Part shown: positions 9,625 through 11,779 of the stretch, piece by piece
Numbering within the stretch: position 1 is the stretch's first letter
How the letters are laid out: every line of letters begins with the position of its first letter
Origin: Opitutaceae bacterium
GTDB taxonomy: Bacteria > Verrucomicrobiota > Verrucomicrobiia > Opitutales > Opitutaceae
NCBI GenBank assembly: GCA_015075305.1
Contig: JABTUS010000003.1
Coordinates: forward strand, 124,001 to 188,000
Direction of reading: 5' to 3'
DNA: 64,000 nucleotides
Position numbers and translations under genes: made by a program
The notes under the pieces: model-generated
Seen by the model: only the letters and a program-made list of their open reading frames with translations
Told to the model about the DNA's origin: nothing
Databases searched by the model: none

Positions 9625-10146
9625 TCATGGCCTTCGGGAAGGGTGCGCCGCTTGTGTCAGACGGAGTTCAACGCCCTCGAGTTCCAGCAGCCGGGTCTTG
9701 ATGGCGAGTCCCCCGGCGAAACCCGTGAGCGAGCCGTCGGCTCCGATCACGCGGTGGCAGGGAATGAAGATGGAGAGGGGATTCCGGCCGATCGCCGCAC
9801 CCACGGCGCGCACGGCGCGCGGGCGGCCGATCTGTCGCGCGATCTGCGCATAGCTGCGCGTCTCGCCGCAGGGTATTGTCGAAAGCGCACTCCACACCTG
9901 CCGTTGAAAGGGCGTGCCGGACGGCACAAGGGGCACCGAGAACACGCGCCGGCGTCCCGAGAAATACTCGCCGAGCTGACGCTCCGCCGCCTGAAGCACG
10001 GAGCTCCGGCCCCGGGCCGCGGCGCCGCCAGGCGACACGCGATCAGGCCGCTCGTTTTCCCAAAGCACGGCCGTCAGGCCTTCGGCACTGGCAACCAGCG
10101 TCAGCCGGCCCACGGGGGAGGGGATGGATTTTGAATGGAGTTGCAT
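9625..10146 (-). CDS. ogt: Methylated-DNA--protein-cysteine methyltransferase
   Basis: A 173-residue protein that removes alkyl groups from O6-alkylguanine by irreversible transfer to its own cysteine. The active-site motif IPCHRVIG places the nucleophile at Cys130. The preceding GTPFQRQVWSAL and IPCGETRSYAQIA segments form the helix-turn-helix DNA-binding part, and GFAGGLAIKTRLLELEG follows. The ATG at 10146 is chosen because MQLHSKSIPSPVG begins the typical N-terminal ribonuclease-H-like domain. A longer frame upstream would run through the intergenic operator-like repeat. It is divergent from the Ada-AlkA gene. Confidence 0.93.
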   Translation of the reverse strand: MQLHSKSIPSPVGRLTLVASAEGLTAVLWENERPDRVSPGGAAARGRSSVLQAAERQLGEYFSGRRRVFSVPLVPSGTPFQRQVWSALSTIPCGETRSYAQIARQIGRPRAVRAVGAAIGRNPLSIFIPCHRVIGADGSLTGFAGGLAIKTRLLELEGVELRLTQAAHPSRRP

Positions 10147-10237
10147 GGCGTGCCGGCGGTGAGGGATCGATGTGTGGCGCGCGAACGCGCTTCCTGCGAG
10201 GATCATCCTAGCCGGACTGCCGGGAAAATACTCGCCA

Positions 10238-10276
10238 TTTTCGGACATGACCACAATTTGGTTCCATGTCCGAAAA
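10238..10276. promoter_or_regulatory. 12-bp perfect inverted repeat between ogt and ada/alkA
   Basis: TTTTCGGACATG (10238-10249), a 15-nt AT-rich spacer, then CATGTCCGAAAA (10265-10276). It sits 92 bp upstream of the ogt start and 46 bp upstream of the divergent Ada-AlkA start. Because neither gene ends here, a terminator role is unlikely; an operator shared by both promoters is the simplest reading. It does not resemble the E. coli Ada box. The AraC domain of the neighbouring protein is one candidate ligand. Confidence 0.65.
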
Positions 10277-10321
10277 CGGCCGGCGCTGAAGGGAGATTTC
10301 CGGTATTCATGCACAAGCACG

Positions 10322-11779
10322 ATGATTGATCCCAAAGCCGCCCACAAGGCCCTGCTCGCCCGCGACGTCCGGTTTGACGGGGTGTTCTTCGTCGGGGTGA
10401 CATCGACGGGCATCTACTGCCGGCCGGTCTGTCCGGTCAAATCTCCGCGTGCGGGCAACTGCCGGTTCTTCGAAAGCGCCGCGGCGGCGGAGAAGGCCGG
10501 CTTCCGGCCCTGCCTGCGGTGCCGGCCGGAGCTGGCTCCCGGCAATGCGCCGATGGACTCCTCGCGACGCATCGCCCACCAGCTGGTGGAGCAGCTGGAG
10601 GAGGGGCTGTCGGGTGATGGTGTTGACCTTGAGACGATCGCCGCGCGGGTGGGTCTGAGTTCCCGCCAGGTGCGGCGCATCACGGTGAAGGAGCTGGGCG
10701 TGACACCAATCGACCTCATCCAGACGCGCCGCCTGCTGCTGGCAAAGCAGCTCCTGACGGAGACCAGGCTGCCCGTTATCGACGTCGCCTTCGCCAGCGG
10801 ATTTGCCAGCCTGCGCAGGTTCAACGACGCCTTCAGCCGGCAGTATCGCATGCCGCCCACACGATTGCGGCGGGCCGCTGGTGCGGCCGGTGGCGGCACA
10901 GTCGAAACGGATGCAACGACAGCCCTGAAGCTGTCCTATCGGCCGCCCTATGACTGGACGGCCATGCTGGAATTTTTCCGCGCGCGGCAGATTGAGGGCG
11001 TCGAATCGGTGACCCCGGAGGCCTACTCCCGCAGTCTGCGACTGGGTGACAAGGCGGGGTGGCTGCGGGTGACGCATCTTCCGGACGAACGCTCGGTGAG
11101 GCTTGAAGTTCCGCATGTGCTGACCGGCACCCTGCAGGCGCTTTTGGGACTTGTTCGCCGGGCGTTTGATTTGTCGGCGCAGCCCGACTTGATAGCGCGT
11201 CATCTGAGGAAGGATCGACGCCTCCGGGCGAGCCTTGCGCGCAGTCCAGGCCTGCGCACTCCTGGAGCCTTTGATCCGTTTGAGCTGACCTGGCGGGCCA
11301 TCCTTGGCCAGCAGATCACGGTGAAGGCGGCGACCACGCTGGCGGGCCGATTTGCGCGGGCATTTGGGGAGCCACTGAGGCACCCCGTCGGGGAATTGAC
11401 GCACCTCACGCCCAATGCGGAAAGAATCGCGGTAGCCCGCGTGACGGACATTGTCCGTCTGGGAATCACTTCGCCGCGCGCGACCGCGATCCGGAGCATT
11501 GCGCGGGCGCTGCACTCTGGATCCCTGCGGCTGGAGTCGGGCGGCGATCCTGAGGCGGTGATGGCGCAGTTGATGACATTGCCTGGAATCGGACCGTGGA
11601 CCGCCCAGTACATTGCCATGCGCGCCCTGCGCTGGCCCGATGCCTTTCCCTCCGGTGATGTCGCTGTGCTGAAAAGCCTGGGAGGCCTTCGGTCGCGCGA
11701 GGCCGAGGCTCTCTCACAGGCTTGGAGTCCCTGGCGAAGCTACGCGGTGATGCACCTGTGGCGAAGCGGGCGGCCGTGA
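10322..11779 (+). CDS. alkA: Ada metal-binding/AraC regulator fused to AlkA 3-methyladenine DNA glycosylase
   Basis: A 485-residue three-part protein. Residues 1-75 form the Ada N-terminal zinc domain with Cys33, Cys37, Cys64 and Cys67, the same spacing as Cys38/42/69/72 of E. coli Ada; Cys33 aligns with the methylphosphotriester acceptor. Residues about 85-180 are an AraC-type helix-turn-helix domain (VDLETIAARVGLSSRQVRRI; DVAFASGFASLRRFNDAF). Residues about 200-485 are AlkA: an N-terminal AlkA domain, then HhH-GPD with LPGIGPWTAQYIAMRALRW and the catalytic Asp in FPSGDVAVLK. The protein thus combines damage sensing, transcriptional control and base excision. The ATG at 10322 is chosen because it starts just before the Ada domain; upstream frame extension crosses the operator-like repeat. 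Confidence 0.93.
   Translation: MIDPKAAHKALLARDVRFDGVFFVGVTSTGIYCRPVCPVKSPRAGNCRFFESAAAAEKAGFRPCLRCRPELAPGNAPMDSSRRIAHQLVEQLEEGLSGDGVDLETIAARVGLSSRQVRRITVKELGVTPIDLIQTRRLLLAKQLLTETRLPVIDVAFASGFASLRRFNDAFSRQYRMPPTRLRRAAGAAGGGTVETDATTALKLSYRPPYDWTAMLEFFRARQIEGVESVTPEAYSRSLRLGDKAGWLRVTHLPDERSVRLEVPHVLTGTLQALLGLVRRAFDLSAQPDLIARHLRKDRRLRASLARSPGLRTPGAFDPFELTWRAILGQQITVKAATTLAGRFARAFGEPLRHPVGELTHLTPNAERIAVARVTDIVRLGITSPRATAIRSIARALHSGSLRLESGGDPEAVMAQLMTLPGIGPWTAQYIAMRALRWPDAFPSGDVAVLKSLGGLRSREAEALSQAWSPWRSYAVMHLWRSGRP

Follow-up and report, generated by a model that had tools for sequence, protein, structure and literature searches.

What controls the two divergent genes for the repair of alkylated DNA in this Opitutaceae contig? 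The window, by which we mean the whole stretch of 64,000 nucleotides analyzed here, contains ogt, an O6-methylguanine-DNA methyltransferase gene (PF01035 and PF02870; 9625–10146, minus strand), and a gene for an Ada-AraC-AlkA fusion of 485 amino acids (10322–11779, plus strand), presumed to combine sensor, regulator, and 3-methyladenine glycosylase. The start codon of ogt was checked, and its ATG starts at 10146, not 10147. A sequence-only reading had reported a perfect 12-bp inverted repeat with a 15-nt spacer between these genes and proposed it as a shared operator of an alkylation-damage regulon. We confirmed the repeat at 10238–10276, where TTTTCGGACATG at 10238–10249 and CATGTCCGAAAA at 10265–10276 form the exact arms. 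With one mismatch the arms lengthen to 16 bp, and the inverted repeat then spans 10234–10280. When the arms were taken as 10 bp and the 15-nt spacer was kept, the repeat matched once in the window at up to three mismatches, compared with 0/100 shuffles, and exact 10-bp arms separated by 5–25 nt occurred at one site in the whole genome (4.87 Mb).

The earlier claim that sensor, DNA-binding, and glycosylase functions lie on a single chain is borne out by the Pfam domains of the fusion, namely Ada_Zn_binding, HTH_18/HTH_AraC, AlkA_N, and HhH-GPD. The closest homologue among the matches listed (64%) comes from an Opitutaceae MAG. The fusion has a zinc methyl-acceptor domain (PF02805), with C33 and C37 present in 81 of 82 aligned fusions (the remaining one has a gap) and C64 and C67 in all 82, and an AraC-type double helix-turn-helix (PF12833, residues 106–184). 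In a PDB sequence search, the sensor domain and first helix-turn-helix aligned with the E. coli N-Ada structures 1wpk, 1u8b, and 1zgw.

The inverted repeat arises from an 18-bp box, ATGTCCGAAAAYGGCNAG, present twice in head-to-head orientation, once for each divergent gene. Box alignment placed the ogt-directed copy, ATGTCCGAAAATGGCGAG, at 10231–10248 on the minus strand and the fusion-directed copy, ATGTCCGAAAACGGCCGG, at 10266–10283 on the plus strand, separated by a gap of 17 nt (10249–10265). We scored the 17 informative positions of the box over 350 nt upstream of fusion genes, using the best 80 of at least 550 relatives confirmed in a species-genome collection. The window was added and two loci were dropped for short upstream sequence (L075, with 1 nt, and L114, with 107 nt that start with a box), giving 79 loci. 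The box is conserved across these loci. Scored with a consensus derived from the same loci, a fusion-facing box matched at 14 or more of 17 positions in 72/79 loci, compared with 12/1301 random windows from the same loci, and an opposite-facing box did so in 27/79. One upstream region (L022) contained a 17/17 box, and fusion-side scores fell below 12 in five of the 79 loci (L059, L091, L104, L116, and L120). Phyla carrying the box include Verrucomicrobiota, Pseudomonadota, Gemmatimonadota, Planctomycetota, Spirochaetota, Acidobacteriota, Nitrospirota, Myxococcota, and Bacillota. The sequence-only reading had named absence of the motif upstream of homologous gene pairs as grounds for its own rejection, and the motif is present there as a conserved element. 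Its proposal of a shared operator survives as a conserved regulatory element, but in place of one operator for both genes there are two separable boxes, one per gene.

Each box stands at a fixed distance from a predicted promoter element. A −10-like hexamer was found at an offset of 37–39 from the box start for 51/73 fusion-side and 21/25 ogt-side boxes, whereas nine other windows of three offsets held only 0–6 and 0–4 such hexamers, respectively. TTGACA-like hexamers at the matching −35 place were rare (9/73 fusion-side and 1/25 ogt-side). Within the window, the predicted −10 elements are TAGGAT for ogt (10205–10210, minus strand) and TATTCA, a poor match, for the fusion (10304–10309, plus strand), both placed 38 from the box start. 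RhaS and similar class II activators of the AraC family recognize a site of about 17–18 bp that overlaps the −35. The boxes share the features of such a site, a fixed distance to the −10 and overlap of a weak −35, with the fusion-side −10 of the window being the poor one, and each box would span about −50 to −33, the class II activator position. An in-frame start codon was observed at box position 49–52, the predicted transcript start, in 38 of 74 box-bearing loci, so that the fusion mRNA is predicted to be leaderless at roughly half of the loci; the ATG of the window fusion is at box position 56.

The number of boxes tracks gene arrangement. With ogt called by the motif PCHR[VIM] (by eye in L065), it was divergent from the fusion in 25/79 loci, and 22 of these had two boxes. 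Of the three with one box, two (L072 and L073) had an ogt side that scored one point below the cut-off, and the third (L059) had no recognizable box on the fusion side. When ogt lay downstream of the fusion (46/79 loci), one box was usual (41 loci), with two boxes in three loci and none in two. The three loci with two boxes (L081, L082, and L097) contained another divergent gene, of EamA type. No ogt was found by the motif in 6/79 loci, five with one box and one with none, and two more loci end too early to tell. Among single loci, one box precedes an ogt-fusion operon in L193, and L083 has a second box upstream of the fusion. An Akkermansiaceae genome carries an intact ogt with its own box (L185 1580–1597), located 6.5 kb from the box of the fusion and followed by CATAGT at offset 37. 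The same genome contains an ogt relic that also has its own box (L055 2290–2307). A further box was seen at L055 1901–1917 in this relic region (1888–2307; the intact ogt region is L185 1580–2168). All 25 divergent-ogt loci fall in one clade of 27 rows (SH-aLRT 100, in a tree used only for the placement of box-bearing rows, with rows L031 and L035 disregarded), and a tree rebuilt without the unsound rows gave one independent pair on supported branches for divergent ogt versus two boxes, so the correlation is clear but hardly replicated by descent.

These patterns bear on whether the two arms could instead form one palindromic operator, with the fusion, or some other regulator, binding both arms as a dimer and controlling the two genes jointly. 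The symmetry in the window is near-perfect, the start-to-start distance of the boxes is 34–38 nt in 22 of 27 doubled loci (with ogt or an EamA-type gene), which makes some cooperation possible, and inverted half-sites are known for RhaS. In RhaS, however, two half-sites act at one promoter, whereas each 18-bp box here appears to serve its own promoter and has its own −10. Moreover, many fusions have a single box, the gap between paired boxes ranges from 9 to 120 nt, and a distant ogt has its own box. Because both arms at a fixed spacing are thus not a general feature, we set aside a single palindromic dimer operator, which we consider improbable, in favor of separate boxes serving separate promoters.

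Searches that started from the motif rather than from the fusion led back to the fusion. The exact box was found in 15 of 387 genomes from the window's phylum, at 17 places altogether. Twelve of these places (ten genomes) were upstream of a fusion gene or, in L193, of the ogt-fusion operon. The other five (five genomes) had no fusion or ogt homologue nearby, and a reversed control likewise gave five matches. In 200 genomes from the order of the Pandoraea at L099 (taken to be Burkholderiales), the exact box occurred in 15, once each, compared with one match for the control. The fusion is present in 14 of these 15 loci: in 12 it comes immediately after the box, and in two (L226 and L227) an EamA-like gene stands in between; in the fifteenth (L222), the sequence ends soon after the box. 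At one mismatch, 26 genomes yielded 56 box matches versus 14 in the control. Exact or near-exact boxes away from the fusion locus occurred at about the control rate, and at one such place with an exact 15-mer (L154) no repair gene was recognized among the ORFs. With the window left aside, 29 loci fetched by ogt homology contained a box at two or fewer mismatches only in L238, the sole locus among them with a close (57%), A-type fusion. Carriage of the module by phages was considered and rejected: 14 viral contigs contained the exact 18-mer, yet none of the 14 stretches contained a fusion or ogt homologue.

A second, paralogous fusion subfamily in the window's family (L023–L044), about 30%–34% identical to the first, has a distinct box. 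Its box, AATTGCNCCGRAANTNNCCGGACGACA, matched at 19–23 of 23 positions upstream of the fusion in 22/22 loci, the consensus being derived from the same 22 loci, and TAnnnT followed 17–18 nt beyond it in 21/22. All 82 first-subfamily fusions have R115, R118, R119, and R165, whereas the second subfamily has T115, E119, and S165 in 22/22 and F118 in 20/22. A box that differs along with recognition-helix residues is as binding by the fusion predicts, in a comparison of only two clades, so that the association of helix and box is confounded by descent. The helix changes are fixed and each subfamily has a box of its own, which makes the two a clean pair for the study of protein-DNA co-divergence. The subfamilies also differ in the sensor domain, where a fifth cysteine, C47 in the window fusion, is present in 81/82 first-subfamily fusions and 0/22 of the second.

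Given that binding of the box by the fusion is something we infer, the boxes might instead be bound by an unlinked regulator, acting as repressor or activator, with the fusion merely one of its targets. Three patterns argue against this possibility. The box accompanies the fusion gene across phyla, the exact boxes above the control rate sit at the fusion in both motif-first scans, and the box changes where the recognition helices of the fusion change. We therefore regard an unlinked regulator as quite unlikely and favor the fusion itself as the protein that would bind the boxes.

The predicted regulon did not extend beyond the gene pair in the window's own genome, as searches with the exact repeat and with the box at one mismatch found no further members. 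Searching that genome with the 17-letter box at one mismatch returned nothing beyond the two boxes at 10231–10283. Four further exact copies of the 12-mer were present (L001–L004; contigs C1, C7, and C9), but they have one identical flank in common, which marks them as a dispersed repeat, and we rejected them as regulon sites. Transposase-like ORFs, recognized by eye, lie near two copies of this repeat (L001 and L003). Among 16 one-mismatch matches (L005–L020), no regulatory feature was recognized in the flanks viewed. A reading of the inverted repeat without operator function, whether as a hairpin or terminator in the leader RNAs or as the relic of a mobile element, is very improbable: a long hairpin could form in the window and the 12-mer also occurs within the dispersed repeat, but single boxes are conserved though unable to form such a hairpin, the dispersed repeat has a non-matching flank, and the boxes are upstream of the predicted −10 and so outside the transcripts.

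The reading that we consider likely is that the intergenic region contains two back-to-back promoters, at each of which the methylated fusion binds a box and activates transcription in the manner of a class II activator, raising expression of ogt and of its own gene. Each promoter would carry one 18-bp box at about −50 to −33, a −10-like element about 20 nt past the box, and no good −35. An N-terminal cysteine of the fusion would take a methyl group from a methyl phosphotriester in DNA, and the methylated protein would then bind each box through its two AraC-type helix-turn-helices. Bound at the box, the fusion may recruit RNA polymerase, and transcription of the fusion gene and of the divergent ogt would rise. 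We infer the binding by the fusion, the trigger by methylation, and activation rather than repression from the comparisons above. Under this proposal, the inverted repeat results from the divergent orientation of ogt, which carries a box copy of its own; when ogt instead follows the fusion in the same operon, a single box would usually suffice. This rule of one box per gene is directly testable.

The EamA-type genes next to the fusion suggest that the response may reach past repair. They were identified by Pfam in L081 (4023–4874) and L097 (2253–3104), by 68% identity over 47 residues in L082 (3–152), by weaker NCBIfam exporter matches below the cut-off in L226 (1579–2457), and by similarity in L227 (about 1580–2449), L083 (6952–7803), and L106 (6954–7766). 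Three arrangements were observed, with the EamA-type gene divergent and two boxes present, between the box and the fusion, or downstream past ogt. The EamA-type transporter is thus a candidate new member of the alkylation response. Ada-AlkA fusions are widespread, and the 18-bp box and its fixed promoter geometry make their regulons predictable from sequence.

Among known systems, the nearest comparison is E. coli Ada, which activates its own gene and repair genes (PMC10957082, PMC3788762). E. coli Ada and the fusion have in common an N-terminal zinc methyl-acceptor domain and AraC-type DNA binding. They differ in the C-terminal domain, which is AlkA in the fusion and a methyltransferase in E. 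coli Ada, and in the recognition helix (SSRQVRR versus SPFHLHR). The operator of E. coli Ada, the Ada box, combines an A box, AAT, with a B box, GCAA. The sequence-only reading had held that the motif in the window differs from it, and this was right for the patterns we tried at 10147–10321. The pattern (AAT or ATT)N6GCAA was absent from this region and present in 5/79 loci versus 27/346 random windows. Caulobacter Cada2, another adaptive-response factor, has an operator of its own, composed of a B box GCAA and an X box CGG (PMC10957082). GCAA and CGG three bases apart were likewise absent from 10147–10321 and, in the two orders, were found in 2/79 and 8/79 loci versus 28/346 and 33/346; no Ada-box or Cada2 pattern rose above background in these loci. 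Cada2 is described in the same source as lacking the four-cysteine A-box domain and having a methyltransferase domain.

In the open-licence literature, among top-ranked results, we found neither an operator for Ada-AlkA fusions nor a link to EamA. The mycobacterial Ada-AlkA fusion, with Ogt as a separate protein, can be likened to the window fusion by description alone, and the available portion of that report gives the M. smegmatis protein non-sequence-specific DNA binding and names no operator (PMC7432924). In Pseudomonas putida, alkA-ada is an adaptive-response operon with predicted, E. coli-like Ada boxes, ATT(N)6GCAA, and AlkA and Ada are separate proteins, unlike the window fusion (PMC3788762). 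Ada-type factors and their motifs are reported to diverge in step (PMC10957082). We regard the box described here as a probable third class of adaptive-response operator. We are evenly balanced on the wider reading, in which this third class, after the A/B boxes of E. coli and the B/X boxes of Cada2, would form with the fusion a protein-box module that passes between phyla as a unit, with a predicted leaderless mRNA at about half of loci and an EamA-type exporter added in some Betaproteobacteria.
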